NCBI GenBank assembly: GCA_009761415.1
Contig: QUOL01000013.1
Coordinates: 610,501 to 674,500 of the forward strand
Origin: Sarcomyxa edulis
Taxonomy: Eukaryota > Basidiomycota > Agaricomycetes > Agaricales > Mycenaceae
DNA: 64,000 nt
Direction of reading: 5' to 3'
Made by a program: the position numbers and the translations under genes
Shown: positions 14,047 through 41,256 of the stretch, piece after piece
Layout of the letters: each line of letters begins with the position of its first letter
How positions within the stretch are numbered: the first letter of the stretch is position 1
The notes under the pieces: model-generated
What the model was told of the DNA's origin: nothing
What the model saw: only the letters and a program-made list of their open reading frames with translations
The model's database searches: none

Positions 14047-14060
14047 AAGGTGATGCTGGA
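14047..14060 (+). repeat. left target-site duplication of the LINE
   Basis: aaggtgatgctgga, repeated at 16623-16636 directly after the poly(A). The first two A are ambiguous with the tail, so the duplication is 12-14 bp, normal for LINE insertion. Confidence 0.75.
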
Positions 14061-16624
14061 TGGGTGTAAGGCTGAAGAGTTGATGGTCATGTGCGAGAAA
14101 CATAATATTTTGCCTGCAAATCACTTCGGAGGTCGACCTGGACGAGCGACCACGGACTCGATCCACCTCATGGTGAAGACCATCAAGGATGCTTGGCGGA
14201 GGGGGGAGGTAGCTTCAGTGCTACTGTTGGATGTTAAGGGAGCATTTCCCAGCACCGTGATTGACCGACTGGTACACAATATGAGGAGGAGAGGTATTCC
14301 GGTGGAGCACACTGAGTGGATGCTGCGACGCCTGACGGGACGCAAGACGCGACTACGCTTTGACGATTTTCACTCAGACGAGTTTGAAATTGACAACGGT
14401 TTGGACCAGGGCGATCCAAAGTCCCCCATTGACTACGATATTTATAATGCAGATCTCCTCGACATCCCCATCAAGGCCAATGGAGAGAGCGCTACCCTCT
14501 TCATCGACGATTGTGGCGCCATTGCAACAGCACCTACTTTCTCAGAAACGCATAGCAAACTCCGTTCGATGGTGACGCGACCAAACGGCATCGACCAGTG
14601 GGCACTTGACCACAACTGCAGCTTCGGCATCGAGAAATATCAGCTCCTTGATGCCGCTAGGACTCTGGTTCCCCACCCCTTCCTACCGCGACGACGAATT
14701 CCTACTCCTCGGAAGGCACTGGTACTTGGAACTCATCGGATTGAGTCTCGAGAGTGTGTCAAGTTTTTAGGGGTGCACATCGACCGAGCTCTACGCTGGA
14801 AGGAGCAGAGTGCTGCGGCTTTAGCCAAAGGCCAGGATTGGCTCATGCAGTTTGCTCGGCTCTCGAAACCTTCCCGGGGTGTCGCTTCCAAACACGTTCG
14901 CAGGCTTTACCTCAGTATTGCAGTTCCTAGGATGCTATACGCGGCGGACATATTTTTGACACCGGGGAGGCGTAGTAAACGCAAGCAGAGTGCATTGAGA
15001 GCAGGAAGAGCAAATCTCAATAAACTAGCCGGGATACAACGACGAGCAGCACTACAAATTACTGGGGCTATGTGCAGCACCGCGACGGATGTTCTCGATG
15101 CTCATACTGACCTTCTCCCTTTCCACCTTCTGGTGGACCAACATCGACAGCGATCGGCCCTACGACTTGCGACTCTTCCCGTCACTCACCCTCTTCACAA
15201 ACCTGTCCTCAATGCGGCACTACGAAATGTGAAGAGACATCCAACGCCGCTACATGACCTGATGGCATCCTTCAAGATAAAACCAAAGCTCGTCGAAACA
15301 ATTGAGGCAGTGCGACAGGATACGCGTTGGAATCCGGAGGTTGCCATTCGAATTGCCCCAGATGCCAAGCGTGCGGAGGCAGAGGATAGCCAGGATCAGA
15401 ACGACATTCAGGTATATTCGGATGGGTCAGGGATCGAAGGAAAGGTTGGAGCGGCCGCGGTTTTGTATCGGGGAGGACGAGTGAAGAGGACATTGCGATA
15501 CCAGTTAGGGTCAACAAAGCATCACACTGTTTTCGAAGGCGAGGGTGTAGGGATGGTTTTGGGATTGGAGCTATTACGGAAGGAACGGGAGGTGACCGAA
15601 GTCTCTATGGGCATCGACAATCAGGCCGCGATTCTGGCGACTGGCAATAGGCGACCTACTCCGTCGCATCATATATGGGATCTCTTCCACAAACGCCTAG
15701 CTATGGTGACTCGTCAACACCCCGACATCTTCTTGTTGGCTCGCTGGACTCCAGGTCACGTCGACATTGCCGGGAATGAGAGGGCAGATGAAGAAGCGAA
15801 GAAAGCGGCCCAGGAGGGCTCTAGTACAATGCAACATCTCCCCGCTCCACTGCGACGACCACTTCCCTACAGCAAATCGGCACTCAAGCAAGCGTATCGA
15901 AGGAAACTGAAATTGGCAGCTAAAAAGATATGGGAGGCTTCGCCCCGACATTCCGCTATGCAGCGTATCGACCCATCTCTACCATCGACTAAATTCAGGG
16001 TTTTCGTAGCGCCGCTATCTCGCAAACATGCTAGTATCCTCATCCAGCTTCGGACTGGCCATGTTCCCCTCAACAAGCATCTCCATCGAATTGGGAAGGC
16101 TGACTCCCCCACATGCCCGTGTTGTCGACAAACTCCCGAGACAGTATACCACTATCTTATGCGATGCCCTGCACATCAGAACGCGCGACGCGAGCTTTTC
16201 CGAGCTGGCGGATCCAAAGCCCGGCAGATTTCGAGCCTCTTGTCCACTCCAGAGACAGTCAAGGACCTCTTCCGATTCATTGCTCGGTCAGGACGGTTGC
16301 GAACTGTGTTTGGGGACGTGACTCCAACAGATTCCGACGACGAGGCGTAGATGCTGGATCAGCGACTTTCCTTTTCTTTTTCTCATTCCGTTTTCGTTCC
16401 TTTCTCTCTCACTACTCTATTTCACAGTTAACACTACTATATTTTATGCGGATCCCTCCGCTTCGAGTGACGCTCTGCGTTACTCAAAAGCTCTTGCTCG
16501 AGTCAGGCCTAATAATGGACATTACTTATATATGAAGCTAGTTTACCGCATGTATTTCTCTACCATAGGGTTCGCCCCACAGGAGAATAAACGAGGAATT
16601 AAAAAAAAAAAAAAAAAAAAAAAA
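14061..16624 (+). mobile_element. 5'-truncated LINE (non-LTR retrotransposon)
   Basis: The element starts abruptly inside a reverse-transcriptase coding region, continues through RNase H and a Cys/His knuckle, then has about 250 bp of 3' untranslated sequence and an uninterrupted A tract of about 25 bases. Flanking 12-14 bp direct repeats mark the insertion. The endonuclease and ORF1 parts are missing, as in typical 5'-truncated copies. The surviving frame has no internal stop, so the insertion is probably recent. Confidence 0.88.
14062..16350 (+). CDS. LINE reverse transcriptase-RNase H, 5'-truncated
   Basis: About 762 codons of a Tad1-like pol protein. The reverse transcriptase part includes HFGGRPGRATTD, LLLDVKGAFP, the GDP block (LDQGDPKSP) and an active-site FIDD in place of the usual YVDD/FADD. 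The thumb (KFLGVHIDR...) follows. A full RNase H domain has the Asp of VYSDGSG, the Glu of FEGEG, the Asp of GIDNQAA and the Asp of GNERADEEAK. A C-terminal knuckle (CPCCRQTPETVYHYLMRCP, CCHC spacing) closes the protein before an acidic tail. The open frame extends upstream to an ATG at 13990, but the residues before 14062 come from host DNA on the other side of the insertion, so this is not a native start. Almost certainly not an autonomous copy. Confidence 0.85.
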   Translation, partial: GCKAEELMVMCEKHNILPANHFGGRPGRATTDSIHLMVKTIKDAWRRGEVASVLLLDVKGAFPSTVIDRLVHNMRRRGIPVEHTEWMLRRLTGRKTRLRFDDFHSDEFEIDNGLDQGDPKSPIDYDIYNADLLDIPIKANGESATLFIDDCGAIATAPTFSETHSKLRSMVTRPNGIDQWALDHNCSFGIEKYQLLDAARTLVPHPFLPRRRIPTPRKALVLGTHRIESRECVKFLGVHIDRALRWKEQSAAALAKGQDWLMQFARLSKPSRGVASKHVRRLYLSIAVPRMLYAADIFLTPGRRSKRKQSALRAGRANLNKLAGIQRRAALQITGAMCSTATDVLDAHTDLLPFHLLVDQHRQRSALRLATLPVTHPLHKPVLNAALRNVKRHPTPLHDLMASFKIKPKLVETIEAVRQDTRWNPEVAIRIAPDAKRAEAEDSQDQNDIQVYSDGSGIEGKVGAAAVLYRGGRVKRTLRYQLGSTKHHTVFEGEGVGMVLGLELLRKEREVTEVSMGIDNQAAILATGNRRPTPSHHIWDLFHKRLAMVTRQHPDIFLLARWTPGHVDIAGNERADEEAKKAAQEGSSTMQHLPAPLRRPLPYSKSALKQAYRRKLKLAAKKIWEASPRHSAMQRIDPSLPSTKFRVFVAPLSRKHASILIQLRTGHVPLNKHLHRIGKADSPTCPCCRQTPETVYHYLMRCPAHQNARRELFRAGGSKARQISSLLSTPETVKDLFRFIARSGRLRTVFGDVTPTDSDDEA

Positions 16625-23989: not shown

Positions 23990-24141
23990 TGTAAGCGTAG
24001 CTTACCAATACGTTACACTGTTTGGCTACGCCTTTAGATATCTCCGTCTCGCGTGTATTCCGTTCTTTACCTTTTAATACCACGCTCCGTTTCATTTTAC
24101 TTCTGTCTGTCTTTCAGTGAAGACAACACGGTCGTCTTACA
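23990..24141 (+). repeat. left LTR of the chromovirus (152 bp)
   Basis: Starts tgtaagcgtagc and ends gtcgtcttaca. Identical by eye over its whole length to the right LTR (constant offset of 17,115 bp). Unusually short for an LTR. Confidence 0.92.
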
Positions 24142-24626
24142 CTTTTTTTTAAAATCGTACTCGGATCGTCCACCGCCCAAGCTTTTTTCGAAGCGTTTTG
24201 GCCTATTTTGGACTCAGCGTGTTCAAATTGCTTCCGCGGCCCTTTTTTCACATCATCGTCTCTTTACTCGCTCAACTCCCCTCCCTCATATCCTCCTTTC
24301 TCGATAAAATCCCCTGATACGTTCCCGAATACCCACCCCCTCCATTTTCTGTCTGAAAACGGCGCAAATTTGTGCGCATATATCGACCCCTGTGCTCTCT
24401 CAACGCTCGCCTTGTCACGCTGGCACGCACCCGTTCTTCCTATCGCTCGTCCAGCTTCCATAGCTCGACATCCTCTCGCCTGCCTTCCTTGACACCGTCC
24501 CCCGAACGTCCTACGCCGGCCACTCAAGCCCGCCGCCCTTCTCAGCCCCTTGCTACTCCTCCTGTTCCTTCTGACTCCGAATCCTCTTCCGACTCCGAAA
24601 CCGATCTGTTCACTGTCTCCAACGCC
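24142..24626 (+). other. chromovirus leader and 5' gag region
   Basis: Begins with a T-rich run right after the LTR. The gag frame is open from 24372, but its first codon there is GTG; the first in-frame ATG is 24627. The stretch in between codes Ser/Pro/Thr-rich sequence and may be untranslated leader or an alternative start region. Confidence 0.5.
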
Positions 24627-25006
24627 ATGTCTACCTTCTCGAAATTTGCCTCTCGCGATGCTGTTGTTACGCAATTGTCTCCTTCCAGCGCTCCGACTAT
24701 GACTCACGGCGATTTGACTCCTGCCGTCTACAACCGTTGGGAAACGATGTGTAAACGTTACTTCGCTACCAAGAAGGTCCCCGCCGACGAGAAGGTCGGA
24801 CGCGTCATCTACAACCTCGAATCTCCCGCAATGATCGAATGGATCAATGTTGAAGAAGACAAATTGCTCGCGATGACTTTCGCTCAATTCTGTGTCGTTT
24901 TCAAGAAGGAGTGGTTCCCGAAGGATTGGGAAGACGCTGTTCGCGCCCGCATGATAGAAATGCAGGGTAAACGCGTTTTTTTCGACTGGCAGAACGCTGT
25001 TCGCGC
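24627..25006 (+). pseudogene. gag N-terminal part, severed by the nested element
   Basis: First 126 codons and two bases of the chromovirus gag, including a capsid-like segment (YNRWETMCKRYFATKKV, then PKDWEDAVRARM). In the present arrangement the frame reads about 27 codons into the inserted LTR and stops at 25086-25088. It belongs with the frame that resumes at 36715. The full gag-pol would be 1,561 codons, in frame across the insertion once the nested element is discounted. Confidence 0.85.
25003..25006 (+). repeat. left target-site duplication of the nested element
   Basis: gcgc, matched by gcgc at 36711-36714 just after the right 1,750-bp repeat. The surrounding gag codons need only one copy, which confirms that this is duplicated target. 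Confidence 0.85.
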
Positions 25007-25997
25007 TGTGAGGATGCCAACATCCCCAGCCAAGGAATCGACAACTATACAACAACCTACTCTTATGCGACTCCTCAGACATAGCTAACTACAGAGATAC
25101 TGGTGGCATCACCACAAACGACTTACTTTTCGAATGACCGGACACTGAAAGACACCAAGTACCCGCTACTTGACGGTTTCTCCCCGAAAGCGGCCTCTTC
25201 ATCCACTCACCAAACGCTAACCCGCCTTCGGTCACGTCTCAGAACGTTTCGGAATACTTGAAATCACACACGAACAACTTCTCCGAAGGAAATCTACCGC
25301 CAGAACCCAATTCCCTATCGTCGTTTCACCTGACCGAAGGCCCAATGTACTCGATCACCTCTCCGCAGCCCCCTAGATCCTTCGGACAGATCCCAAATCG
25401 TTTCAAGAGGCTCCCTTTCACCTCTAGAAGACCTCATCGAGAGATACTTCACCGACAAAACATTGCCACCAGTCGACATACCGCCAACGTGATGCTTGCT
25501 GCCCTGAGCTGTTCTTCCTATCAAATCGGACATATTCCCTTTACATTGTGATCTCAATTCACACCTTTCCATGCATCTGGACGCCTCGTTAAGACCTCCG
25601 TCCACCCTGACCAAGTGGTGCTACGGAATATTCTTCCCTCTGTGTTTATCACATGACACAGCACTTGTAAGCGAGGTATCGCCCGCTAACAAAGACACTA
25701 CAGGTCTCCGCCTAGCAACCCACATCAAATTCACTCTTCTCGGACAACTTTGGCCGTCGCATCTTGGAAAAAATCTATCGGAAGCTCCCCATCATCCTGC
25801 TCACTCGGACATGTTTCATCCCTTCACAAATTCACCTTGCAACGCTTTCAGAGAACACCTCAGGCCCTAACCTTTCACACTGAGCGAGGTTCGGACACAT
25901 CAAAACCAATACCGGATCTGTTTCATCATTGGAGATCTCGGGGACCTTGGGATGGCACTCGGGGTGAAGAATTAGGCAAGGACAGGGAAGGAATTCA

Positions 25998-26005
25998 TAT
26001 ATAAA
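25998..26005 (+). promoter_or_regulatory. TATA box inside the nested element's LTR
   Basis: TATATAAA about 1 kb into the LTR, in the element's sense direction. It probably sets the U3/R boundary near 26030. A second copy lies at 35952-35959 in the right LTR. Confidence 0.55.
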
Positions 26006-26220
26006 GTAGGATAGGACATGGAGAACGGTAGATAGAATCAGTGTGGACGAGAACCAGAGGAACACACCCGAATCGACCAACTACCCAGTCACTCTCTATA
26101 GGAATTCTATCTCTTTCTCATACTTCTGAAACCGAGACAAGGAAACGATTACAGGAGTCGGTCAAACAAAGAGAAAAGGACTTGATTCAGCCAGCAGTAC
26201 CACCCCCCGGAACAAAGGAA

Positions 26221-26527
26221 GCTCTCCGAAATCAGTCCAGAGCTGTCCGAAACCCTCGAAGCTCTCCGAAATCAGTTCAGAGCTGTCCGAAACCTTCGAT
26301 AGCCCTCCGAAGACGTTTTATAGTTATACAAAGCATCGGTCAGCTCACCAAAAGCTGTCCGAGGCCCTCGTAGGTTCTCCAAGATCGAACTTATAGCTGT
26401 CCGAAGCCCTCGATAGCTCTCCGAAGACGTTTTATAAGCCGTCCGAAGCATCGATCAGCTCTCCGAAAGCTGTCCGAGGCCTTCGTAGGTTTTCCAAGAA
26501 CGAACCTATAGCTGTCCGAAGCCTCTA
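26221..26527 (+). repeat. degenerate CCGA-centred repeat block in the LTR
   Basis: About a dozen imperfect copies of words such as agctctccgaa and agctgtccgaag, arranged in longer units that include tccgaagacgttttata twice. The same block is at 36175-36481 in the right LTR. Confidence 0.7.
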
Positions 26528-26758
26528 AACGGCCTACCGAGAACAATCCTACAAGTCCGAAGCTTACCTTACACCTCATCATCTCATACCCACCTCACCA
26601 TCGTTTTACGAACACATTATCCAAACACAAGTCACTGGGCATTAGGATTACTCGCTACGTAAAATCCCCTCCGAGAAAACGTCACCTTACCCCCTAGAGG
26701 CGAACTTTAGTTAGGAGTCTAGCACATCTACTCCTAGCGCCGCAGTCCTCATCACAAC

Positions 26759-26776
26759 TGGAGCCCACCGCGAGGG
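26759..26776 (+). other. candidate primer-binding site of the nested element
   Basis: TGGAGCCCACCGCGAGGG starts two bases after the LTR end. TGG can pair with the CCA end of a tRNA, but I cannot assign which tRNA. Confidence 0.45.
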
Positions 26777-27106
26777 GAATTGAAAGCCTCTTCTTAGGCC
26801 TTCCAAATACCGCGATTATCCGTTAAAATATCCATAAAACAACCCCTCCAAAGAAACCGCTCCGTTCACCGCTACTACCATCGATAAATCACAGATGGGT
26901 CTCATCCCAGACGCTTTCTTCCGACCATAGACATCACGCATAAAGAACTACTTCTCTACCCTATCCACAGACACTACTTCCAACGACTATATTAAAACGG
27001 ATATACGTCTCTCGGTGTCCGAAATTAAAGAAACAGAATTGTGGTTTATTCTCTTATAAATTACATAGGGAACAAAAATATTACTTTCAATAACCGATCT
27101 ACTATT
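26777..27106. other. nested element interior, no gene
   Basis: AT-richer spacer between the candidate primer-binding site and the 3' end of the Zn2Cys6-like gene. Nothing recognised. Confidence 0.4.
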
Positions 27107-28864
27107 TTACACGGAATCGGCCTGCTCCTCCTCAAAAATAAACCCGTACTGGTCCTCAACTTGCGATATAGCGGCATCGATAACACCCGACAGCTGATCA
27201 CGGATGACAGGAGCGAGCTTACCAAAAACCTCGACACCAGCGGCGCCATCGAGTATCCTGACCTTCAACCCGTCAACCACTGACTTCCATTTTTCCCGAC
27301 GACCTGTGGCCTGAGGAACGGACGAGGGATTGATCGAAGAGGGTTCAGGAGCACCGAATGGCTCAACAATACCCGTGTCATCAAAATCTTCGGATCGACC
27401 CGTGGCTCCTTGCTGAAGGATGGTCCTACGGGTTTCGGGCATATGCATCTCGCCGAAAGAGATTGGAGCATCGGAGAAGGCGCCGCTGGACGCTGGCTCG
27501 ACAACATAACGATCACCGACGGGTTTGGGTACTACAAGTAAGGAAGACAGCGGTAAATTCGAGAAAAACACGTTTTTTGAGGAAAAAAGAAAACATACCA
27601 CGAATTTTTAAAGGCGCCAACCGGGATCTCTCGACATCGACCGGCGAAACCTCACGGGCTTTTCCCTTCCCTTTGTCCCTCGGAGGTATTTCCTGCCGCC
27701 TGTTGATAATCGAAGGACCAGGAAGACTGTCGGAGGTTTCGGATACGGGAGCAACCTTCTTTGGGGCAATAACGATTTCCCCCAGTTCGATGGCGCGGGT
27801 AAGATCGAGAAGACCCTCGTCCTCGTGAATATCGCAGCCGGTCCTCCGAGCAAAGCATCTGTCGCAGGCGTGACTACGATGCCCATTACAAGTAACGTTG
27901 TGCTTGATACACCTGCTACAACGCCAGTCCTGTAAAATGGGGATTTTAGAGCTAGAAAGAAGAATGGAAGAGAAAAAATGTACCAGGTGGCGGACGAGAT
28001 AAGGCTGCTGGGCCTTGAGGATACGACCGGCTCTTTTCGAAGAAATACCTGGGGGTTTTTTGATAGGAACCGCGCGAGTCGCTGAAGGAGGAAGGACTAC
28101 GGGCCTGATACGAGGATGGACGATGTCTGTGTCGGACTCTTCCCTTGCGCGTTTAACACCCCGAGGATACCTGATTCTTACCTCGGGGGACGGGACATTT
28201 CCCTCTGAACCTTCAGGGTTAACAAGACTCGAAGGACCGGTAGTCACGAGAGGTAGGTCTGCCGGGTGAATGGTGGCGGCGCTACCGAGATTGACGTCCG
28301 CGTCCTCGGCTGGAAGAAAACAAATTGGAACCGGTGAATAAAAAATAAGGAAGGATTAGGAACGAACTCACCGAGCTCATCGATCTCATCCTCGGACAAG
28401 TTTGGGAAATGAGACGTTCCCAGTATTTCTTCAAAGCTACCGTACCACGGAGCGGGAGTTTCCTCCTTCGCGGGAAGGAAAAGGGGAGTGTGGCGAGGAG
28501 GCAGGTTGTACTCGAGAGCCTCTAAAAAGAAGTCGGGAATGATGACGAGCTGACGAACGAAGCCGATAATATCGTCGTCCAAAGTAGGGAACTCGTCGAA
28601 AGCTGGAGGAAATGGAGGCGTCCACCCAATGTGTAGGAAAGCCACACAAGCTGAGTGGAGCTCCTCGCGACTTCTCGCGGTAGCCGGACGGAGCGCCTCG
28701 ATCAGACCATACTCGGCGCCTGAAATCCTCCGTGTCGACCTCATAGAGGCCGAAACCTGTGCTGGAACCTTGGTGGTAGGAAGGCCACCGGATAGCGCGA
28801 GGTTGAAGGCCTCAGAGAACGTAAAATCGGGAGCGACTTGTGACGTGGACGACGATAGAGGCAT
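27107..28864 (-). CDS. Zn2Cys6-like protein carried by the nested element
   Basis: Unknown function. Exons (minus): 28864-28372, 28309-27984, 27929-27599, 27531-27107; 524 residues. Residues about 274-302 hold six cysteines spaced C-x2-C-x6-C-x7-C-x2-C-x6-C (CSRCIKHNVTC ... CDRCFARRTGC), which fits the fungal Zn(II)2Cys6 binuclear cluster; the exon begins just before it. The cluster is internal, whereas in most Zn2Cys6 regulators it is near the N-terminus. Basic stretches flank it (RGVKRAREES, RDKGKGKAREV) and the C-terminal 80 residues look helical. DNA or RNA binding is therefore possible. It lies last in the antisense series. I see no TATA box close upstream, so an upstream non-coding exon is possible. 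Confidence 0.7.
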
Positions 28865-29680
28865 GGGAATAGTCTTAGGAGGTAATGGGAGAGGTGATCG
28901 AGACGCGTTTGGTGCTGGAAAAATGGTGGGCAGAGGGCGACTGAGATTTGATCGATAAAGTTCGAAAGTGATTCCATACCTCGGCGATCTCGTTTCGGGT
29001 ATCTCCAGGCACGTGTCGATCTAATCGCGCTTCGCATCTCGCGGCGGCACCAAACAAAGGAGAGGCCGATGCCAAACACCCACTGGTAACCGAAGGATCG
29101 GACAGCCTAAAGGAGATCGGGCTCGATCACATCGAAAAACGAAGAAAGTCGAGACCGGAGAACGACAATCATGGAGATAAAAATCGTCGGAGCAAGCATA
29201 TCCAGGCGAACAAGCACGATTGGAAATGAAATAATGGAAGTCATCGAACATAAAAAGTTAAGGGTTAAACGGTACCCAGGAAGTCAATAAGAAGAACGAA
29301 CGATTAAAGCAAGCACGAAACGGACAAGTTTGCGCCATGGGAGTCATAAACCCATAACGGATAGAGAGCGACGGCTCTCCTGTACACAGTGACGAAATAC
29401 TGCGAAAAGACACGGACGACAAACGATCGAAAGAAATTGGAAGAAAACGACTATGCGGGGTTCGGAGACGGTAGATCTGGCTGGCCAGCGGATCTACTGA
29501 CGCAGACCGAACCCAATTATGCGCTGATATGATTAAAAGTATGCAACTCACAACGTTTTACAGATTTACGAGGAGACCGAGACGCTGGGTCTCACACTAT
29601 GCAAAATTATGAACGAATTATGCGCCTGTTATCAGGCATTTATTTTACAGAAACAAGGAATCGGAAACTCATCGGACGGT
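28865..29680. other. nested element interior, unassigned
   Basis: Between the Zn2Cys6-like gene and paralogue E. Short frames on both strands, Arg/Ser-rich in translation, none with a domain. May hold promoter or 5' untranslated exon of the Zn2Cys6-like gene. Confidence 0.35.
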
Positions 29681-30616
29681 CTACAGAATGGTAGTATCAG
29701 GTACCGCTCCAGCTCCTCGACGATTAGCCCTTGCCCCTCCGCGACCTCTCCCACGCGTCGCAGCGTTCCGAGGATCTACCTGTCCGAAAGCTCCAGGGCC
29801 GAAATGAACTTGGTGGAGGCCTCCGAGACGAGGATCGGGAACGTCTCCGTGAAGACGGACCTCTTCAAAGCCCTCTTTCACGGGAAACCTCGCAACGAAG
29901 GGGACAAGAGGATATTGAGGAGCAGGAAGAACAGGATTGGGAACGAAAGCCGCCCGCAATCTGAGCAGGTCGTTAACTTGCTGCTGCTTCATTTCGGGGA
30001 GCACGCCGTACACGTTGTACGTATCGGACGACTCAAATCCATCGAAATCCAGGGCAGTTCCGACGTATCCGACCTAGAAAAAGACGAAAAGAAATAAATC
30101 AACGAAGAATGAGAACCAAGAAATATGTAAAACGTGCCTGGGCAACCATCTCGCTCTTCACCGACGACAAAAGATACCCAACGTTCCTAACGTTGACCGC
30201 AACGTAGTCCCCCTCGAAACCAAAGTTCTTCAGAAAGAACTCGAGCATGGCGACGGTAGTGGTGGCTTGAGCGGGAATTGGAATGGTATCCCAAGAACCT
30301 GATTTAATGGCTTCGGAGGCTCGGAGCTTCATAGCTTGATGCTGGACGGACGATGTTGAAAGAGGAACGATGAAGGAAAAACAAGCGAGCCGCTTACTAC
30401 GTAATTGACGATCCGGGTGAGGAGGGTCCTGACCCAGAGCCTTTCCTCGAGAGGAACGTCCGTCGGACACCTTCCATTAACGGAGAGATGAACGATGCCT
30501 AGGAGGCTACGAATTGACCGAGACCAGATGGTGGTCGGAGACCTCTCATTCTCGAGGTCGGGATCCTGGGGATTTTCGGGAAAGCGATTTGCAGACAAAC
30601 GGAGAATAAAGGACAT
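29681..30616 (-). CDS. paralogue E of the antisense gene family
   Basis: Unknown function, 271 residues. Exons (minus): 30616-30398, 30341-30138, 30073-29681. Exon 1 holds the family box around IWSRSIRSLLGIV; exon 2 starts after the phase-0 intron shared by all five paralogues and contains the box IPIPAQATTTVAMLEFFL, equivalent to the P-S-E box of the others. The second intron appears to use a GC donor (cag|GCACGT) with acceptor ctag: only this joins MVAQ to VGYVGTALDF in frame. The unique third exon ends in an Arg/Gly-rich tail (RGRGRGGARANRRGAG) that could bind RNA. TATATAAA lies 52 bp upstream of the ATG. Confidence 0.65.
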
Positions 30617-30667
30617 CGTTGATGGAACTTTACTGACTTAAGGATCAGAGCAAACAATTCGGGGAGG

Positions 30668-30675
30668 TTTATATA
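30668..30675 (-). promoter_or_regulatory. TATA box of paralogue E
   Basis: TATATAAA on the minus strand, 52 bp before the ATG. Confidence 0.5.
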
Positions 30676-30717
30676 TGCAGACTACAATAAGCGGCATATG
30701 ATTCTGGGAGCGTTACT

Positions 30718-31436
30718 TTACTCCGTCGTTTCCTCCTCCGACCCTGGCCAGTCCTCCGCGTCGCTATATCCTGCACCTTCGGACTCCCCCTCGACTACGA
30801 CAACGCGCTTAGGTACGACCCTTTCGAGGAGATCGAGACGGATCGATCTGGTCATCGCGCTTTCCAACGCGGCATCCCCGGGCTTCTCGTACTCCGGCCA
30901 ATCGAAGGCATCTTCAGCCGACGCGTAAGCCGCCAGGGCGCGTATGCTAAGCTCGGTAAGAGCTCGGACGGCTTCGACCTCCCAATGAATGGGGCTTGCT
31001 GGCTGAATTCGGACAGCCCGACAAATCAAGCGCAAATGGCTAATCGTTCTATTCATCTCGGACGGAATCATGTATAAACGCCTGTCCTGCTTGTTCAGCT
31101 CCTGCCACTGGCTGTGGAAATGGACCTGTTACCGATCAAGTGAAAACCCGTTAAACAATGAGATCGCTAAGGGTCGAGTTTAGACCAACGTACCGCGAGG
31201 AGCAACACGATTTGCGCATTGCAGTAGTAGGGAACCCTCTCGCGACCAGTTAAAGCTACGAAGTAGCCATCGGGCCCGAGTTCACGGAATATAAAATCGG
31301 CAACGAGGCCGACAGCGGGGCGCAGGAGGCACCTGAGATAGTGAATCATTCCGTCACGATCAAGGATATCGAACGTTGCTGCCTCTTGGGCAAGAGTGTT
31401 CAAAAGGACTTGGTGTAGGGGTTCCATAATTTTCAT
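30718..31436 (-). CDS. paralogue D of the antisense gene family
   Basis: Unknown function, 216 residues from exons 31436-31194 and 31125-30718 (minus). Exon 1 has the first family box (HYLRCLLRPAVGLVADFIF). The intron is phase 0 after codon 81, at the place seen in the other paralogues. Exon 2 has the second box (YMIPSEMNRTISHLRLI) and the third (FDWPEYEKPG), then an acidic C-terminus (AEDWPGSEEETTE). The family looks helical and globular with no signal peptide or membrane segment. A TATA box lies 41 bp upstream, so it appears to have its own promoter rather than depending on read-through. Confidence 0.65.
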
Positions 31437-31476
31437 GGGCTCTGCGGTGACCCGTACGGAGGAATTGATTCACCCT

Positions 31477-31483
31477 CTTTATA
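31477..31483 (-). promoter_or_regulatory. TATA box of paralogue D
   Basis: TATAAAG on the minus strand, 41 bp before the ATG. A GTCCGA word, as in the LTR repeat block, lies about 30 bp further upstream. Confidence 0.5.
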
Positions 31484-31521
31484 CTAAAAATATCGCGCTA
31501 TTCAGCTATCGGACACCCCTT

Positions 31522-32117
31522 CTACTTGCCCGTACCCTCCCCTGCCAACCGTATCACGAACTCCGGAAATTCCACGGCAACTGCCTCTCGGTGCATTACA
31601 GGGACGATAGACCAAAGGAACTCCTTCGTTAAATCCTTCCTCTTCACAAGTACATCCTCATCGTACCCGAGCTCAACTCCGTGATGGATAAGGAATAGCT
31701 GCACCATGCTTGCGAGGCGCAACGCTTCTGACGGAACCACGGCCTCGTCCCCTCGGCCAATTGCCGTCACCCTATCCCTAAACCGTAGAATGGCATCCTA
31801 GAAGACGTAAGGTTAACACTCCGAAGCTCACCGAGTGAAACACGGACGCCTACCAAATGATCCAACACGATGCGGAACCAGCCTTTCGTCTCGCTCCATA
31901 TGATTGGTTCAACAGTGTCTCTTGGGGAACTCGTTATAAGATAAGCCGCGTACCCCCGCTCGACGATCTCCACCATAGGGCGGAGGCGGAATCGAAGGAA
32001 GTTTGTAAAGCCCTCGGTAGGAGCGAAATCCCCGGCAAGAACTTCAGGAGGATGAGCGTACGACAAAAACTCGTCTCGGAGGGCTTGAGTAAACGATGAA
32101 CTAACGACATGCGACAT
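31522..32117 (-). CDS. paralogue C of the antisense gene family
   Basis: Unknown function, 179 residues from exons 32117-31854 and 31797-31522 (minus). Exon 1 carries FTNFLRFRLRPMVEIVERGY, the clearest form of the first family box. The phase-0 intron follows codon 88. Exon 2 carries the second box VVPSEALRLASMVQLFL, then a DE-rich turn (GYDEDVLVKRKDL) and the third box (VEFPEFVIRLAG). With B it is the most compact pair of the family and best defines the shared core. Confidence 0.68.
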
Positions 32118-32159
32118 TTTGGCTGGAATAACGATGGCTATCCTGCGCCAGCTGGCGTT

Positions 32160-32166
32160 CTTTATA
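32160..32166 (-). promoter_or_regulatory. TATA box of paralogue C
   Basis: TATAAAG on the minus strand, 43 bp before the ATG, with GTCCGA just upstream. Confidence 0.5.
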
Positions 32167-33180
32167 CCTCATCGGACTTAGGACTGACGTCTCGGACCGA
32201 TAAGAGGTGTCCGAACGGACTCCGTGCAGCCACTGTTAACCGTTGGATTTTCCGGACCGTGCCTTATCAGAAGCAGTAAAGACGCATGTTCTTCGGTATA
32301 GATGCTCACGGAACGATTGCGAATGCCACATGCAAAAGAACACGAGCTGGCCGCCACGTCGCGCCGCTACCCTGGGACCATCTTTTCGACTATTGTCGCA
32401 GGTCCTTGCCTCACCTGATACACTTCGCCGTGTCTCGTTCCTTCGCGAAGATTTCGCAAGATCGCGGTCACATCACCCGCACACGTATTAACCCGCACAG
32501 TCTCAACTGCGCCGTAAGAACAACGACGATCAGGACGCAAGCCACCTCGATCTAAACGGCCATGACTTCATGAAGCCACTGGCGCTTGACGGCTGTCGGC
32601 TTTGAGCGCTGTAGAAATGCAACTGCATCATCTTGAAGAAGAGAACAGCATCTTGCGCCGGCCGAGTTATTGAACGGGACGAGAAGATCATCCTGACATC
32701 GCATATCGGCGAGGCTACGGAAGAACGAAATGATGACCAGGCCACTGAGCGATATAGCGAAACTGTAAAGGAGAAAAGCTCTGAAAGCATTAATAACCTC
32801 TCTCCGTTCTCATCTCACTCGCCTTCCCTCTGAACTTTCCTCTCATCAAGAGCCGCTGACTGAGTTACGAACTGTCCGCGATTCAAAATGTCTGCGCACA
32901 GCGGGTGGAATCATCGGACATCGGTACCCTTTATAAAGGAGGTTGGGAGGCTGCCCGAGACCGTCGTTGCCCTCCGAACCGACAGGGCATTCCATAAACT
33001 ACAAGATATTCAAACGCGGCACGCGAAAGGAGTGTTTATCCGTTAAAGTACCAACGATGACAAAAAACCCCTCGGTCACATCCAGGAAAGCTTCCCCGCT
33101 ACGCGTGCGTTCTGAAATGCGAATTTCCGACTATTAGTATCCCTCTGAGGGGCCCAAAGAACGAGACCGACGGCGCCTGC
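32167..33180. other. nested element interior between paralogues B and C
   Basis: The minus strand shows no family member here. On the plus strand several adjacent frames between 32243 and 32833 stay open for 60-90 codons with gene-like composition, but I could not join them convincingly. A palindromic ctttataaag lies near 32933. A decayed or plus-strand gene is possible. Confidence 0.35.
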
Positions 33181-33767
33181 TTACCAGAACACCAGGTCCT
33201 CAAATTCGGGATACTCCTTTGCCCCGCCAGTCAATGAAGCGTTAACGTCGGCCTCATCTTTTAGTGACTGAAGCATTTCCCTCCTCTGACCGACGCTGCT
33301 GAGGGCCCAGTCCCCGTGAAATCCGACCTTGTCATAAACGATAAGACTGAACTCCATCATACGGGATACCTCTGAAGGAATTTTAAATTCGGCGGCGTTG
33401 GCATCGGTCCTGGCCCGCTGACGGTATGCAACGATGAGTTCCTGCGCAGAAGGATTTTTTTTAGTATCTCTGCGTTGCCCCGCTGAACAACGGTGGAAGC
33501 CCGTACAACGTTCTCGACGAAAAACCGCATAAGCCGCCTCGACAGCGTATACTGCCCGATAACGCTATCGGTGTCATCGGGAAATGCTGTCACCCTATGG
33601 GGAAGCGTCGCCTGGATGACACCGAACATCATACGGAGGCGTTTGCGGAAGAATCCATCGAAGCCCTCGTGCGGATAGAAGACGGGTCGAATGAAGGACG
33701 GGACGTTCAGCGTCATGAAGTAGTCGCAGAGTCTCTCGCGAGCCATTTGCATACTGCGGGCAGGCAT
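33181..33767 (-). CDS. paralogue B of the antisense gene family
   Basis: Unknown function, 173 residues from exons 33767-33507 and 33441-33181 (minus). Read without splicing, the first frame stops at 33357 and hides the homology. With the intron (donor GTACGG, acceptor gcgcag) exon 2 supplies the box KIPSEVSRMMEFSLIV and the third box KEYPEFEDLVFW, matching paralogue C in order and spacing. Exon 1 has FDGFFRKRLRMMFGVIQ, the first family box. The intron is again phase 0, after codon 87. The open frame extends five codons upstream of the ATG. TATAAA lies 30 bp upstream. Confidence 0.66.
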
Positions 33768-33796
33768 TTCGATTTTCAACACGAAAGGACTCGTCG

Positions 33797-33802
33797 TTTA
33801 TA
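33797..33802 (-). promoter_or_regulatory. TATA box of paralogue B
   Basis: TATAAA on the minus strand, 30 bp before the ATG; closer than in the other paralogues, so the true start may be downstream. Confidence 0.4.
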
Positions 33803-33862
33803 TGTACATGATGACTGCATGCCCTCGATCACCTCTCCGAACCCTTCCCTCTTCTTGCCGCC

Positions 33863-34801
33863 TCATGCCCCCGACAAATTGTTTAGTCCCTGTTCGATAA
33901 TCGCCGCCCCGCCAATCAAACCGTTCCTCTCCTCTTCGGATAACGTCTCCAAAAGCAGGCGAAATGCCCCGTGTGTTGCCAAGCTTGCGAGTGGCTGGAC
34001 TGTACCTCTCCGATCAGCTCGTTGCCGCACCGCTAAAGTGTCAGAATTCTTACCGGACAAGGCCCTTTCTACCTCGGCCACCTCCATTTCTTCGTCCCCG
34101 TCGTCCGTTGCAATACTTATGACGGATATGCCTTCGTCTTCGTTGTTAGCCGGATTTTCTTCCCCCTCGAGGCTGTTGCCCCTGTCCGTACTAATCGTAC
34201 CATCTCGATGAACCCTGGGACCGCTGTATGGATGCTTCTTCAACACGGCATGCGCATGGAACCGACCACGCGGGTCCGCCTCGATATAATCGAAAGCGAC
34301 GCCAAATGTCGATCGGCGGGCATATTCTTCTATGAAGTACAAGATAACGTCGATCTTATGTGCCTCGTCCTCGTCCTGATCCCCGGAAAACCCTACGACG
34401 TGGACACATCGCTGCACCTGGTAAACGGCGGTCACTGCTTCCTTGGGAAACGGCTCCGTGGTATCGTCCATGCACCTCCCCTTCAGTACCCATCTAAGTC
34501 TGAGCATGAATACCTTAACCTTCGCAATTAGCACGGACCCCCTGAAAGGCGCACACGCACTCACCATGTGCTGGCACAAGATTTTAACGTGCTTTCTCAA
34601 CGTGTATACACCGTGACTCGAGAACTCCGGAAGGAGAACGTCCGCCACAGCATCTTGAAAAATGCAGCTGACGACTAGGTGAACCATGGGACGGATATTG
34701 TTACGCAGGTATCCGAGGAAAGTTGCCATCGTAATATCGCCATCTATCCCGTCCAGATCGAGGCAACGCGTAAAGAAGAGTTCTTTTGCTATGGGATCCA
34801 T
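33863..34801 (-). CDS. paralogue A of the antisense gene family
   Basis: Unknown function, 297 residues from exons 34801-34565 and 34519-33863 (minus). The 45-bp intron is a multiple of three and open, so the unspliced frame also reads through, but GTGAGT and a gcgaag acceptor sit exactly where the other four paralogues have their phase-0 intron. First box: FLGYLRNNIRPMVHLVVSCI. Second box: PFPKEAVTAVYQVQRCVHVV, followed by GDQDEDEAHK. The C-terminal 120 residues are unique, acidic in the middle (ISIATDDGDEEMEVAEVE) and unlike the rest. First gene of the antisense series, reading from the right LTR. Confidence 0.66.
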   Translation of the reverse strand: MDPIAKELFFTRCLDLDGIDGDITMATFLGYLRNNIRPMVHLVVSCIFQDAVADVLLPEFSSHGVYTLRKHVKILCQHMVSACAPFRGSVLIAKVKVFMLRLRWVLKGRCMDDTTEPFPKEAVTAVYQVQRCVHVVGFSGDQDEDEAHKIDVILYFIEEYARRSTFGVAFDYIEADPRGRFHAHAVLKKHPYSGPRVHRDGTISTDRGNSLEGEENPANNEDEGISVISIATDDGDEEMEVAEVERALSGKNSDTLAVRQRADRRGTVQPLASLATHGAFRLLLETLSEEERNGLIGGAAIIEQGLNNLSGA

Positions 34802-34847
34802 TTGGCTTGTTGCTTTCAGGAAAGCCCTGGCTGTCTTGACCTTGGGA

Positions 34848-34853
34848 TTTATA
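34848..34853 (-). promoter_or_regulatory. TATA box of paralogue A
   Basis: TATAAA(T) on the minus strand, 47 bp before the ATG. Confidence 0.5.
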
Positions 34854-34944
34854 GGTCCTCGACCGGTCGTCCTTGCCCTGTTTTGGTCGTGGACACGTTG
34901 TTGTGTTTGCCCTCTGGATGATCGACCGGGGACGGTCGATATTT

Positions 34945-34960
34945 AAAAGTTAGGAGGAAG
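34945..34960 (+). other. polypurine tract of the nested element
   Basis: aaaagttaggaggaag directly abuts the right LTR on the plus strand. This fixes the element's sense direction as left to right, opposite to its genes. Confidence 0.6.
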
Positions 34961-36710
34961 TGTGAGGATGCCAACATCCCCAGCCAAGGAATCGACAACT
35001 ATACAACAACCTACTCTTATGCGACTCCTCAGACATAGCTAACTACAGAGATACTGGTGGCATCACCACAAACGACTTACTTTTCGAATGACCGGACACT
35101 GAAAGACACCAAGTACCCGCTACTTGACGGTTTCTCCCCGAAAGCGGCCTCTTCATCCACTCACCAAACGCTAACCCGCCTTCGGTCACGTCTCAGAACG
35201 TTTCGGAATACTTGAAATCACACACGAACAACTTCTCCGAAGGAAATCTACCGCCAGAACCCAATTCCCTATCGTCGTTTCACCTGACCGAAGGCCCAAT
35301 GTACTCGATCACCTCTCCGCAGCCCCCTAGATCCTTCGGACAGATCCCAAATCGTTTCAAGAGGCTCCCTTTCACCTCTAGAAGACCTCATCGAGAGATA
35401 CTTCACCGACAAAACATTGCCACCAGTCGACATACCGCCAACGTGATGCTTGCTGCCCTGAGCTGTTCTTCCTATCAAATCGGACATATTCCCTTTACAT
35501 TGTGATCTCAATTCACACCTTTCCATGCATCTGGACGCCTCGTTAAGACCTCCGTCCACCCTGACCAAGTGGTGCTACGGAATATTCTTCCCTCTGTGTT
35601 TATCACATGACACAGCACTTGTAAGCGAGGTATCGCCCGCTAACAAAGACACTACAGGTCTCCGCCTAGCAACCCACATCAAATTCACTCTTCTCGGACA
35701 ACTTTGGCCGTCGCATCTTGGAAAAAATCTATCGGAAGCTCCCCATCATCCTGCTCACTCGGACATGTTTCATCCCTTCACAAATTCACCTTGCAACGCT
35801 TTCAGAGAACACCTCAGGCCCTAACCTTTCACACTGAGCGAGGTTCGGACACATCAAAACCAATACCGGATCTGTTTCATCATTGGAGATCTCGGGGACC
35901 TTGGGATGGCACTCGGGGTGAAGAATTAGGCAAGGACAGGGAAGGAATTCATATATAAAGTAGGATAGGACATGGAGAACGGTAGATAGAATCAGTGTGG
36001 ACGAGAACCAGAGGAACACACCCGAATCGACCAACTACCCAGTCACTCTCTATAGGAATTCTATCTCTTTCTCATACTTCTGAAACCGAGACAAGGAAAC
36101 GATTACAGGAGTCGGTCAAACAAAGAGAAAAGGACTTGATTCAGCCAGCAGTACCACCCCCCGGAACAAAGGAAGCTCTCCGAAATCAGTCCAGAGCTGT
36201 CCGAAACCCTCGAAGCTCTCCGAAATCAGTTCAGAGCTGTCCGAAACCTTCGATAGCCCTCCGAAGACGTTTTATAGTTATACAAAGCATCGGTCAGCTC
36301 ACCAAAAGCTGTCCGAGGCCCTCGTAGGTTCTCCAAGATCGAACTTATAGCTGTCCGAAGCCCTCGATAGCTCTCCGAAGACGTTTTATAAGCCGTCCGA
36401 AGCATCGATCAGCTCTCCGAAAGCTGTCCGAGGCCTTCGTAGGTTTTCCAAGAACGAACCTATAGCTGTCCGAAGCCTCTAAACGGCCTACCGAGAACAA
36501 TCCTACAAGTCCGAAGCTTACCTTACACCTCATCATCTCATACCCACCTCACCATCGTTTTACGAACACATTATCCAAACACAAGTCACTGGGCATTAGG
36601 ATTACTCGCTACGTAAAATCCCCTCCGAGAAAACGTCACCTTACCCCCTAGAGGCGAACTTTAGTTAGGAGTCTAGCACATCTACTCCTAGCGCCGCAGT
36701 CCTCATCACA
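34961..36710 (+). repeat. right LTR of the nested element (1,750 bp)
   Basis: Same length as the left copy and identical wherever compared. Followed by gcgc and the resuming gag frame. Confidence 0.9.
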
Positions 36711-36714
36711 GCGC
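36711..36714 (+). repeat. right target-site duplication of the nested element
   Basis: Second copy of gcgc. Confidence 0.85.
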
Positions 36715-39700
36715 CGATAACTTACTCCTCATTGGAACGAACGACCACATTAAGGACGACGACCTCCGTAAATTTCTCTTTGATAGAATCAATCTCGAAC
36801 TGCGCACCGCCTACAAGAAGAACGATAAGAAAGGCGAAATTTCCGACATTACAAAGCTCAATCTCTGGATCGCCGAGGTTCGCACTCTCGACGAGGAGAT
36901 CAGCTTGGAATTGAAGAAGAAAAACGAATACTGGCGCAGCGCGATGGAGAAGGAGGAGAAGAAGGCTATTTCCAACGGGACCTCCGCAAACTCCAGCAAG
37001 AAATCTGGCGATAACAACAATGCCGCCTCTACTTCCAAGTCTAAATCCACTGCCGCCGCCCCCGTTTCCCGTCCTCCGAAGATCACCGACGAAGAGCGTA
37101 AGCTCATCAACGATCACAACGGTTGCCTCAAGTGCCGTCGCCTTTACACAGATCACTGGGCTAAATCTTGTGAAGAAGACGCCCCCTCTGGCGACAACTA
37201 CGTCCCCATCACCGCCGCTCATGCTCTTGCCGCGAAGACCGCTTATCTCGCCTTACAGGGAAAGTCCGGGTCAATGAACGTCAACGCCGTCTTCGGTAAT
37301 ACCGACGAGGATCATGGGTCCGCTAGGTCTTCCTCTGCTTATGACGAAGACTCTGGTGATTCAGAATCCATGGACGAGTACGTACTTCCTCCGTCTCCAT
37401 CTAATCTGCTTCCGCCTTTGTGGTGGCGTGCTCGCGTCGATCACGCTTCCGCAGTTGATGCTCCATCGTTCAATGCGCTAATTGACACCGGCTGTCCAAC
37501 AGTTCTGATTTCGCCTGAGCTCGTCTCGAGTTTGGGCCTTGAAATCAAAGCGCTACATCAACCTCTACAAGTCTCCGCGGCTTACTCGAAGAATGGAAAG
37601 GATGGGTCTAAAGTTTCTCTCTCTCAATTTGTACGACTTTCTGTATGTTCCGACGACTTTTCATTCCAATCGAAGAAATGTTATGCTGTCCTTTGTCCCG
37701 GCCTCCACACATCCCTTATCCTGGGGAACTCTTTCCTAGGCCACAATAAAATCGTCGTTGACGTCGACAAACGTACCGCTGTCTTGAGAGGGACCACCCA
37801 CGATCTTTTGTGTCCACCTGATCCTAAACTCGCGCGGATCGATCCATCCCGTACCAAATCTCCAAGGGCTAGGCGTCGCGAGTGGCTCGCTACGGCCAAG
37901 ATCTTGAAAGATCAAACCAGACTCGCGTTGCAGCAACGTTTCCTGCGCGACGACATTAAAGAACGCGTCGAAGAGTCCTGTACTCCTGCTGAAGGGGTCC
38001 CCATGGTTGCCTACGTACGCACGCGTATCACTCAACTGGCTGCACAGGAACGTCTGGCGAAACGGGATGCTAAGCTCAAGAAGAAGCACGCAGACCGTTT
38101 TCCCCAGGATATTCCACACACCAGCGAGTTGCCCGAAGACGTCCTACACCGTATCGTGGTGAACGACGACGCGAAGAAAATTCGGGTAGCGCGCGCATAC
38201 ACATGCCCTAGAAAATTTCGAGAATCCTGGCGTATACTGATCGAGCAGCATGCAAAAGCTGGTCGTATTCGTCCGTCCTCCTCACAGTACGCTTCCCCGT
38301 CTTTCATTATACCAAAGGCTGACGCCGCCGTCCTGGCTCGGTGGGTCAACGACTATCGCATTCTTAACTCCGTCACCGTTCCCGACAATTACCCGTTGCC
38401 TCGTATCGAGGACATCCTCGCCGATTGTGCGAAGGGTAAAATTTGGGGAAAGATAGACATGACCAACTCCTTCTTCCAGACCCGAATGCACCCTGACGAC
38501 ATAAAATACACAGCTACTCTCACACCTTTCGGTCTCTGGGAATGGGTAGTCATGCCCATGGGTTTGCGCAACGCACCTGCGACCCATCAACGTCGGGTTA
38601 TGCTCGCCCTGAAAAAGTATATTGGAAAGATATGCCACGTCTACCTCGATGATATCATCATCTGGTCTAATACCATTGAGGAACACGAAATTAATTGCTC
38701 CCTCGTTTTGTCCGCTCTCGCCGACGCACATCTTTATTGTTCCTTGAAGAAGACGAACCTTTTTTGCACCGAAATCGATTTCCTCGGCCATCACATTTCG
38801 AACCGCGGGATTGAGGCCGACGCTGCAAAAGTCGAACGAATTATTAACTGGCCAGTTCCGCGATCTGCGAAGGAAGTCAGGATGTTTCTTGGTCTTGTCC
38901 GTTACCTCGCATCATTCCTGCCCGCGCTCGCCGAACACACCGCGGTCCTCACTCCTTTGACGACGAAAGAGTGCAACTCACATTTTCCACCCTGGACGGA
39001 CGCCTTTCAGGCCTCTTTTCAGGCCGTTAAGGATCTGGTCCTCAGCCGCGAATGCTTGACAACGATCGACCATGACAATCCTGGCGAAAATCATATCTTT
39101 GTGACTTGTGATGCTAGTGGTGTCCGCACGGGTGGAGTTCTTAGTTTCGGCCCTACCTGGGAGACTGCTCGACCCGTCGCCTTCGATTCAATGCAATTCA
39201 CTGGTGCTCAACTACACTATCCCGTACACGAACAAGAAATGTTAGCCATCGTCCGCGCTCTAAAGAAGTGGCGGGTCGATCTGCTCGGTTCCCACATCAC
39301 TATCGTTACCGACCACCGTACACTTGAAAATTTTGACACCCAGAAAGACCTGTCTCGGCGTCAAGCTCGCTGGATGGAATTTCTCTCTCAATACGACTAT
39401 ACTATCCGTTACGTTCCCGGCGAGGACAACACTGTCGCCGACGCCTTGTCGCGTACCGCTATTCCTAACTCCCCCCCTTCCTGCGACGCCTCGATTAACG
39501 CCGTTTTTGAAATTGGTTCCGATCCTGCTATCCTCGCGGAAATCAAGTCTGGTTATTTGTCTGATGCCTTCTGTAAAAACCTATTCGACGATATCGCTTC
39601 CGGTAAAATCGACCATAAAAGCGGGGTGCACTTGAAAGACGGTTTACTCTTCTTGGGAGACCGCCTCGTTATTCCTCGTTCCAGTTCCCTCCGCGATAGC

Positions 39701-41020
39701 TTGTTCCACATGGCCCACGACGCCCTCGGTCACTTTGGCGGTGATAAATCTTACGCCGCGTTACGCAACGACTACTATTGGCCGAATATGCGAAGGGACT
39801 TGGTGGATTTTTACGTCGCTTCTTGTCCAGACTGTCAACGAAACAAAGGGCGTACTGCAAAACCTTCCGGCCCTCTTCACCCTTTACCTGTACCCGACGG
39901 CCGTCTCGACTCCATCACAATGGACTTCGTCGGGCCTCTGCCTGAAGAAAACAACGTGAACTGCTTAATGACGATCACCGACCGCCTTGGCTCCGACGTG
40001 CAAATCATCGCTTGTAGAACGGACGCCACTGCTCAGCAGATTGCGGGACTGTTCTTCGACCGGTGGTATTGCGAAAACGGTTGCCCATTGGAGATTATTA
40101 GCGACCGCGACAAACTGTTTATCTCGCAATTTTGGACCGCGCTGATGGTTCGCGCTGGAATAAAGCACCGATTATCTACTTCCTACCACCCACAATCCGA
40201 CGGACTTTCAGAACGATCCAATAAGACTGTCATCCAGGCCATTCGCTTTCATGTCGAACGTAATCAAAAGGGATGGTCCACTGCCTTGCCAGCCGTTCGC
40301 TTCCACATCATGAACACGTTAAACGCCTCCACCGGCTTCACCCCATTTCAACTCAAGACCGGTCGATCTCCCCGATTGCTTCCTCCCCTCGTGCCCGGCG
40401 ACATTCCGAGCAGTGTAGAAGACTCTGAAGTGGTCGAACTGCTGAAAGCACTTCAAGTAGACGTTCTCGAGGCCAAAGACAACTTAACCGCCGCCAAAAT
40501 CGAACAAGCACATCACGCCAATAAATCTCGCGCCGTCGAACATACATATAACGTTGGAGATCGCGTCCTCTTAACTACAATCAATCGACGCCGTGAATAC
40601 ATGCAGGCCAAAGACGGACGCGTCGCTAAGTTCATGCCGCGTTACGATGGACCTTATAAAATACTCGACTTTCATCCTGAAACTTCCAACTACGTCCTCG
40701 ATTTACCTAATTCGCCTAATATCCACCCTAATTTCCACGCTTCACAAATCGTACCATTCGTGGAGAACGACCCTGTCCGTTTCCCGCATCGCGAACACTC
40801 ACGTCCTGGTCCAATCGTCACACCTCAAGGTCAGACTGAGTTCTTCATCGAGAGGATTCTCGACGAGCGCCCGAGGGGCAAAGGTCGCCAATACTTGGTC
40901 CGCTGGGTTGGTTACGGGCCTGAAGATGATCTCTGGCTTGCCGGCAAAGAGCTCGAAGACACTGCCGCTCTCGACGCTTGGGAATCTCGTACAACCACTC
41001 CTGAACTGGACCCTGTTTGA
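36715..41020 (+). CDS. chromovirus gag-pol, 3' part (capsid end to chromodomain)
   Basis: Continues the severed gag and codes the whole pol polyprotein without a stop. In order: end of capsid; zinc knuckle CLKCRRLYTDHWAKSCE (C-x2-C-x6-H-x4-C); aspartic protease with LIDTGCP; reverse transcriptase with the YLDD site (VYLDDIIIWS); RNase H (TCDASGVRTGG, then the DRTLEN-like DHRTLENF); integrase HHCC zinc region (HDALGHF ... CPDCQRNKG) and catalytic D, D, E in MDFVGPLP, IISDRDKLF and DGLSERSNK; and a C-terminal chromodomain (ILDERPRGKGRQYLVRWVGY). Chromodomains of this kind can steer insertion to methylated-histone chromatin. Gag and pol are one frame. Translation from the native start is prevented by the nested insertion, although all catalytic residues are kept. 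Confidence 0.93.
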
Positions 41021-41104
41021 ATTTCTCCATATTCTTATTCTATTTTATCTCTTATCCGCTTTCATTTTTTGGGGAGACTGCTATGGTTTTATGGTATAGG
41101 AGAG

Positions 41105-41256
41105 TGTAAGCGTAGCTTACCAATACGTTACACTGTTTGGCTACGCCTTTAGATATCTCCGTCTCGCGTGTATTCCGTTCTTTACCTTTTAATACCACGC
41201 TCCGTTTCATTTTACTTCTGTCTGTCTTTCAGTGAAGACAACACGGTCGTCTTACA
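41105..41256 (+). repeat. right LTR of the chromovirus (152 bp)
   Basis: Identical to the left LTR, followed by the acttg duplication. Confidence 0.92.

Follow-up and report, generated by a model that had tools for sequence, protein, structure and literature searches.

The window examined here, a 64,000-nucleotide stretch of the genome of the mushroom Sarcomyxa edulis (contig QUOL01000013.1, positions 610,501 to 674,500), contains at positions 25007-36710 a long terminal repeat (LTR) retrotransposon, the window element, with six spliced genes (A to F) on the strand opposite that of its genomic RNA. Very probably, it represents the short form (S), devoid of gag-pol, of a fungal Ty3/Gypsy-type lineage that was active recently, is copied in trans by an autonomous form (G), and has antisense, intron-bearing genes of its own. 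The identity of the element and its mode of movement are well supported; the roles of the antisense genes can be assigned only tentatively.

Structure and orientation of the window element

The two LTRs, which start with TGTGAGG and finish with ATCACA, are identical at 1750 of 1750 bases, and GCGC is present on either side of the element as a 4-bp target-site duplication. The copy is 11.7 kb long, with an interior of 8204 bases, and is built as follows.

25003..25006, no strand: target-site duplication, left copy GCGC, read in the flank
25007..26756, plus strand: 5' LTR, TGTGAGG...ATCACA
26759..26776, plus strand: primer-binding site (PBS), 18 nt, complementary to a CCA-tailed tRNA 3' end
26777..29355, no strand: S-specific segment (leader and gene F), replaced in the G form by gag-pol and a gene termed F'
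34952..34960, plus strand: polypurine tract (PPT) AGGAGGAAG, adjoining the 3' LTR
34961..36710, plus strand: 3' LTR, identical to the 5' LTR
36711..36714, no strand: target-site duplication, right copy GCGC, read in the flank

The 18 bases of the PBS pair with the CCA-tailed 3' end of an intron-bearing tRNA gene. Within the genome searched (40 contigs, 35.6 Mb; the window is part of contig C5), the tRNA gene end predicted from the PBS is present exactly at six places, and a reversed control gives zero. Two of these places were checked, and both are tRNAs by Rfam (53.3 and 50.3 bits). In the fetched loci L053 and L054, ARAGORN detected no tRNA; Rfam recognised one in L053. On our own reading of the anticodons, TTT and CTT, the primer would be a lysine tRNA. 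The 19-mer starting at 26759 is exact in 15/15 fetched 5'-LTR loci, in 7 of the 9 fetched interior loci that span the PBS, and in a second element family (see below), and the PPT adjoins the 3' LTR in 13/13 fetched 3' LTRs. The placement of the PBS and PPT identifies the plus strand as the genomic-RNA strand; the six genes, on the minus strand, are thus antisense to this RNA.

A preliminary description of this DNA had reported 1,750-bp direct repeats, a 4-bp duplication, a candidate PBS, a purine tract, and an interior with six spliced genes on the opposite strand and no pol, all of which were found. The Pfam families RVT_1 and RVT_2 have no match within 26757-34960, and no sense gag-pol frame is present among the interior open reading frames. 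The RVT_1/RVT_2 searches of the genome missed the reverse transcriptase of the G form. An overlooked reverse transcriptase frame, which the description had named as a point that could overturn it, did not turn up: the reverse transcriptase nearby, at 38312-38797, is part of an outer chromodomain element. The LTR also contains tandem-like repeats (26218-26523 and 36172-36477, 80-93% identity), and the LTR of the second family likewise repeats internally.

An autonomous form with the same LTRs

The LTR has at least 42 matches in the genome (40 of 107 candidates scored) and the interior at least 21 (21 of 37 candidates scored). Of the interior matches, 11 (the window element included) cover most of the sequence, 8 start no earlier than interior base 2522-2600, and 2 are cut short at the opposite end; this list is incomplete, lacking a copy on contig C12 that was found through gene F. 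Among the candidates scored, there are about 15 copies of the S form and about 15 of the G form. The first exon of F is matched at 15 places; F' has another 15, and one fragment besides; G-type pol is present with at least 93% identity over most of its length at 14 or more places, plus fragments (36 of 175 candidates scored), and second exons of gene E belonging to this family (family 1) number 30 plus one partial. As the preliminary description had anticipated for an element that moves, the interior search and the gene checks in other copies yielded many copies with the same gene order between LTRs at different loci.

The G form is about 17.3-17.5 kb long, as judged from LTR positions on C1, C7, and C36. 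In the C1 and C7 copies, about 8.4 kb replaces the first 2.6 kb of the S interior. The G form encodes an 878-aa gag frame with a protease and a 1280-aa pol frame with RNase H and an integrase zinc domain (Pfam). Residues 215-524 of pol are the reverse transcriptase region by similarity to solved reverse transcriptase chains, with no match to Pfam RVT_1 or RVT_2, and the closest solved-sequence match of this pol is Ty3. The domain order (protease, reverse transcriptase, RNase H, integrase) is that of Ty3/Gypsy; with its LTRs, PBS, PPT, and target-site duplication, the G form is a Ty3/Gypsy LTR retrotransposon. The S form has no gag-pol of its own, and it has its LTR, PBS, PPT, and target signature in common with this autonomous partner.

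Thirty LTR loci were fetched: 15 5' LTRs (7 followed by S and 8 by G sequence), 13 3' LTRs, and 2 solo LTRs. Both ends were fetched for eight elements, four of the S form (the window element and copies on C6, C2, and C11) and four of the G form (on C7, C12, C1, and C13), and the 4-bp duplications match in all eight as well as at both solo LTRs. Every flank read (loci L009-L038) has the form NCGN; since CG is central in each, the integrase is suggested to have a strong CpG target preference. Mean LTR identity is 98.44% between S and G versus 98.57% within each form (12 LTRs per form, with four unclassified and two solo LTRs excluded), and the two forms are not separated on a tree. The LTR pair of each single element is 99.89-100% identical (8/8). 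Given the matching duplications, the NCGN flanks, the intermixed LTRs, and the near-identical own pairs, one integration machinery appears to have served both forms, and recently. Because a gag-pol-bearing partner exists with the same LTRs, PBS, PPT, and NCGN signature, G proteins, which would act on S RNA, most likely mobilise the S form in trans.

At C38:1736960-1754566 and C38:361737-377956, S elements are inserted adjacent to or within each other. Several near-identical G copies are found no more than about 16 kb from the ends of C7, C8, C11, C17, C22, and C25; these places may be subtelomeres or assembly breaks.

The antisense genes A to F

The six spliced gene models span 4980 of the 8204 interior bases. 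All are on the minus strand.

34801-34565, 34513-33863 (span 33863..34801), minus strand: gene A, 295 aa, intron added from comparison with the second family
33767-33507, 33441-33181 (span 33181..33767), minus strand: gene B, 173 aa
32117-31854, 31797-31522 (span 31522..32117), minus strand: gene C, 179 aa
31427-31194, 31125-30718 (span 30718..31427), minus strand: gene D, 213 aa
30616-30401, 30341-30138, 30073-29681 (span 29681..30616), minus strand: gene E, 270 aa, second intron GC-AG
28864-28372, 28309-27984, 27929-27599, 27531-27107 (span 27107..28864), minus strand: gene F, 524 aa, Zn2Cys6 cysteine spacing

The window copy supplied the gene models, which were then checked in 10 of the roughly 30 copies: eight of the S form and, over the part in common, two of the G form. 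All 10 have B to E open; F is open in 8/8 S copies and A in 8/10 copies. An intron-less model of gene A, open in 6/10, was dropped in favour of the present one; length changes of this gene in the C11 and C38 copies lie wholly within the predicted intron. The introns are kept in 84 of 84 cases in the compared copies, starting with GT or GC and ending with AG. The pooled ratio of nonsynonymous to synonymous divergence (dN/dS) is 0.084 for A, 0.008 for B, 0.080 for C, 0.146 for D, 0.088 for E, and 0.149 for F; the values for gag and pol, from two G copies, are 0.032 and 0.046. The 129 variable sites in B-E fall 17, 11, and 101 at codon positions 1, 2, and 3, respectively. By these codon-level measures, the predicted genes A-F are under purifying selection.

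The words TATAAA or TATATA are present 35-59 bases upstream of the start codon in A-E; among other promoter words, none stood out upstream of the genes. B first exons with at least 90% identity are found at 28 loci, 26 of which were compared, and 25 of these 26 have an E locus 3.05-3.15 kb away. The designation "host-like", which the preliminary description had given to the genes, is not supported: no Pfam family is above cut-off for any of A-F, and, where compared, the relatives in the genome are in copies of this element or of the second family. In the protein database, B has two matches, one of them with half coverage and identical over that half, and A has one, unnamed; these counts may be limited by poor representation of intron-bearing genes in the database. 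A PDB search with an 11-protein profile and a scan of viral contigs with gene A each gave zero matches. A predicted structure of the gene A product from a two-sequence alignment, in which 17 residues later read as intron were folded, has a mean predicted local distance difference test (pLDDT) score of 40.9 and was left uninterpreted.

Genes A-E appear to be diverged paralogs whose first introns correspond. For B and C, the paralogy is clear (BLASTP 6e-9, profile probability 98), and weaker pairings are seen for B-E (BLASTP 3e-4), A-E (BLASTP 0.009), and A-C (profile probability 85.5). In 11/11 proteins, the first intron is in phase 0 at alignment columns 90-93; this coincidence is not wholly independent, as the splice sites were picked with the relatives known, and the proteins align loosely (12-33% identity to the first row).

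A second element family with the same gene order

Distant matches to B (33-39% identity) at eight loci revealed a second element family, which has six long pol matches with 77-84% identity to family-1 pol (79% is the value quoted for the family). In a copy at C12:984683-1005290, the two 2,090-bp LTRs are identical, the PBS has the same 19 bases, gag and pol are present, and an antisense cluster runs A2-B2-X2-C2-D2-E2, its introns in corresponding positions. Protein identity between the window and this family is 41% for A, 32% for B, 30% for C, 31% for D, and 47% for E, and E2-type genes are found at nine places in the genome. A search for F in the stretch beyond E2 gave nothing significant (best E 0.99); a cysteine-rich frame is present there. 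The window element has 1 kb between its genes C and B (32118-33180, minus strand), and no trace of gene X2 was found there (best E 4.9). For a pol group about 50% identical, one copy was checked, and no A-F-type match with E<0.1 lies within 9 kb downstream. The C12 element is flanked on the left by a family-1 gag fragment (L052, 3-686) and on the right by a partial family-1 LTR (L051).

Antisense genes are thus present in gag-pol-bearing elements of both families, A-E in two family-1 G copies and the cluster in one family-2 copy. Because the genes are also in the autonomous G form and the A-E order recurs in the second family, this comparison identifies the predicted antisense genes as genes of the element, not a host capture.

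Genes F and F' and the S-specific segment

In the G form, F' is an antisense gene beyond pol; the model from the C1 copy has 411 aa and four introns. The cysteine spacing of Zn2Cys6 proteins (here, C-x2-C-x6-C-x5-12-C-x2-C-x6-8-C) is present in F in 8/8 S copies and in F' in 2/2 G copies scanned. F and F' match each other only in part, with 36-40% identity, and G copies match the S interior from about base 2522-2600 onward. Between the PBS and about 29300, S copies are mostly 10-40% apart, except for blocks that differ by 2-5% and whose partners shift along the segment; divergence over the remaining S interior is mostly 0-6%. Synonymous divergence (dS) of F is 0.396-1.053 in 26 of 28 pairs of S copies (0.003 and 0.235 in the other two), and the mean for A-E is 0.04-0.06. 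The simplest reading is that the S segments are old and that template switching during reverse transcription would keep the LTRs and A-E alike between S and G.

A model for the S and G forms

In the proposed mechanism, genes A-F would be transcribed from the minus strand, most of them from TATA-bearing promoters, while the sense RNA would be packaged and reverse-transcribed. In the sense RNA the introns would be in an orientation that splicing does not recognise, so that antisense placement would hide them and allow them to survive the RNA stage. F and F' would bind DNA, regulating the element, and A-E would act as accessory proteins. As a best guess, still tentative, F and F' may be DNA-binding regulators of the element and A-E accessory proteins of its life cycle. 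A bolder and rather unlikely extension is that of an "ambisense" retrotransposon, in which gag-pol would be expressed from one strand and several genes forming a regulatory or accessory programme from the opposite one, with antisense orientation as an intron-keeping device; S and G would then form a two-component system to which S contributes diverse F proteins rather than being merely a parasite.

Several observations weigh against parts of this account. Mobilisation in trans by itself leaves open why the S form has retained working genes; the likeliest answer is that their products act on or for the element, with F as a putative DNA-binding regulator. F scores 13 bits against a Pfam Zn_clus cut-off of 21, F' is without any Pfam match, and F has no TATA box within 200 bases. 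Gene A is interrupted in 2 of the 10 copies (C34b and C3), and paralogy is weak for D and for X2 of the second family, profile comparisons with which give 10.5 at most. The copy counts cover the candidates scored, and some copies may be duplicated contig ends.

Alternative explanations

As ordinary host genes do, these genes have introns and TATA boxes of their own, and they remain open in copies lacking gag-pol, as might be expected if the element had captured a group of host genes and were spreading it, the genes serving the host. However, where compared, A-E- and F-type matches are present in the genome only at loci with other element genes (including the 25 of 26 B loci with E at a constant distance), the same A-E order is found in a second element family, and Pfam recognises no known host domain, making such a cargo improbable. 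Consequently, of the earlier proposal of a cargo-bearing element moved in trans, the movement in trans is supported, given the partner with the same LTRs, PBS, PPT, and NCGN signature, and the host cargo is not, given the genes in autonomous G and the A-E order in the second family. About as improbable is that the function lies in antisense RNA, with minus-strand transcripts pairing with genomic RNA to limit copy number and the proteins being secondary. Any minus-strand transcript would complement the genomic RNA, and such control is described as proposed for other elements (PMC7264820); yet pairing alone does not need the codon-level selection seen here (dN/dS 0.008-0.149; 101 of 129 variable B-E sites at third positions).

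The 98-99% identity of S and G in their LTRs and A-E would also fit an S form that is a mere deletion derivative of G, still undecayed. This explanation is already disfavoured and very improbable: the S segment is not a gapped G sequence, as shown by the partial match of F and F', and the high dS of F together with a dN/dS of about 0.15 indicates that F has been maintained since long before the shared parts separated. The idea of one host region caught a single time between two LTRs, which the preliminary description had set against its own reading, has already been refuted and retains almost no probability; nothing was found in its favour, and other loci hold the interior between these LTRs as well, with 4-bp duplications of their own.

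Surroundings of the element in the window

The window element lies within another retrotransposon, a nesting that adds to the preliminary description.

23990..41256, plus strand: outer, older chromodomain Ty3-type element with short LTRs and its own 5-bp duplication ACTTG, interrupted by the window element

When the flanks are rejoined without the window element, a single uninterrupted frame of 1651 aa results; thus, the window element is a clean insertion into the older one. Elsewhere in the window, positions 13975-16350 (plus strand) hold a non-LTR-type frame with matches to reverse transcriptase, zf-RVT, and RNase H (the last below cut-off).

Relation to known elements and significance

Among plant LTR retrotransposons with antisense open reading frames (Retand, Grande, RIRE2, PvRetro13), two papers describe antisense coding between pol and the 3' LTR that is conserved in many copies, as here, and, for Retand, members without gag-pol that resemble the S form (PMC7264820, PMC11963269). 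The function of such frames is stated to be not known (PMC7264820), and a regulatory role is suggested for the plant proteins (PMC11963269), which the reading of F would parallel. The present element differs from those of plants in having six genes, every one with introns, and in the apparent paralogy of five of them. The word "intron" is absent from the main text of both papers (PMC7264820, PMC11963269), and the TRP28 domain of the Retand antisense protein has no Pfam match in A-F or F'. In fungi, Boty of Botrytis cinerea is likewise an LTR element with an antisense gene (brtn), but brtn is described as one additional gene, in contrast to the six-gene cluster here. Pol of the G form has 1602 database relatives, with Leucocoprinus, Candolleomyces, and Pleurotus among the 120 matches listed; the antisense cluster sets the present elements apart from such agaric Ty3/Gypsy elements. 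In the open-access literature searched, no LTR element was found to be reported with more than one spliced antisense gene.

Large retrotransposon derivatives (LARDs) are not known to have coding capacity. The S form resembles them as a long, gag-pol-less LTR element having its LTRs in common with an autonomous family, but it differs in encoding six predicted genes under purifying selection. A large LTR element that lacks gag-pol, therefore, need not be non-coding. With multiple intron-bearing genes, an order kept across two families, strong codon-level selection, and a gag-pol-less form that retains the cluster, these elements offer a clear case of antisense coding. They make it testable whether antisense genes serve the element that carries them, and whether antisense orientation may be a route by which introns pass through the RNA stage.

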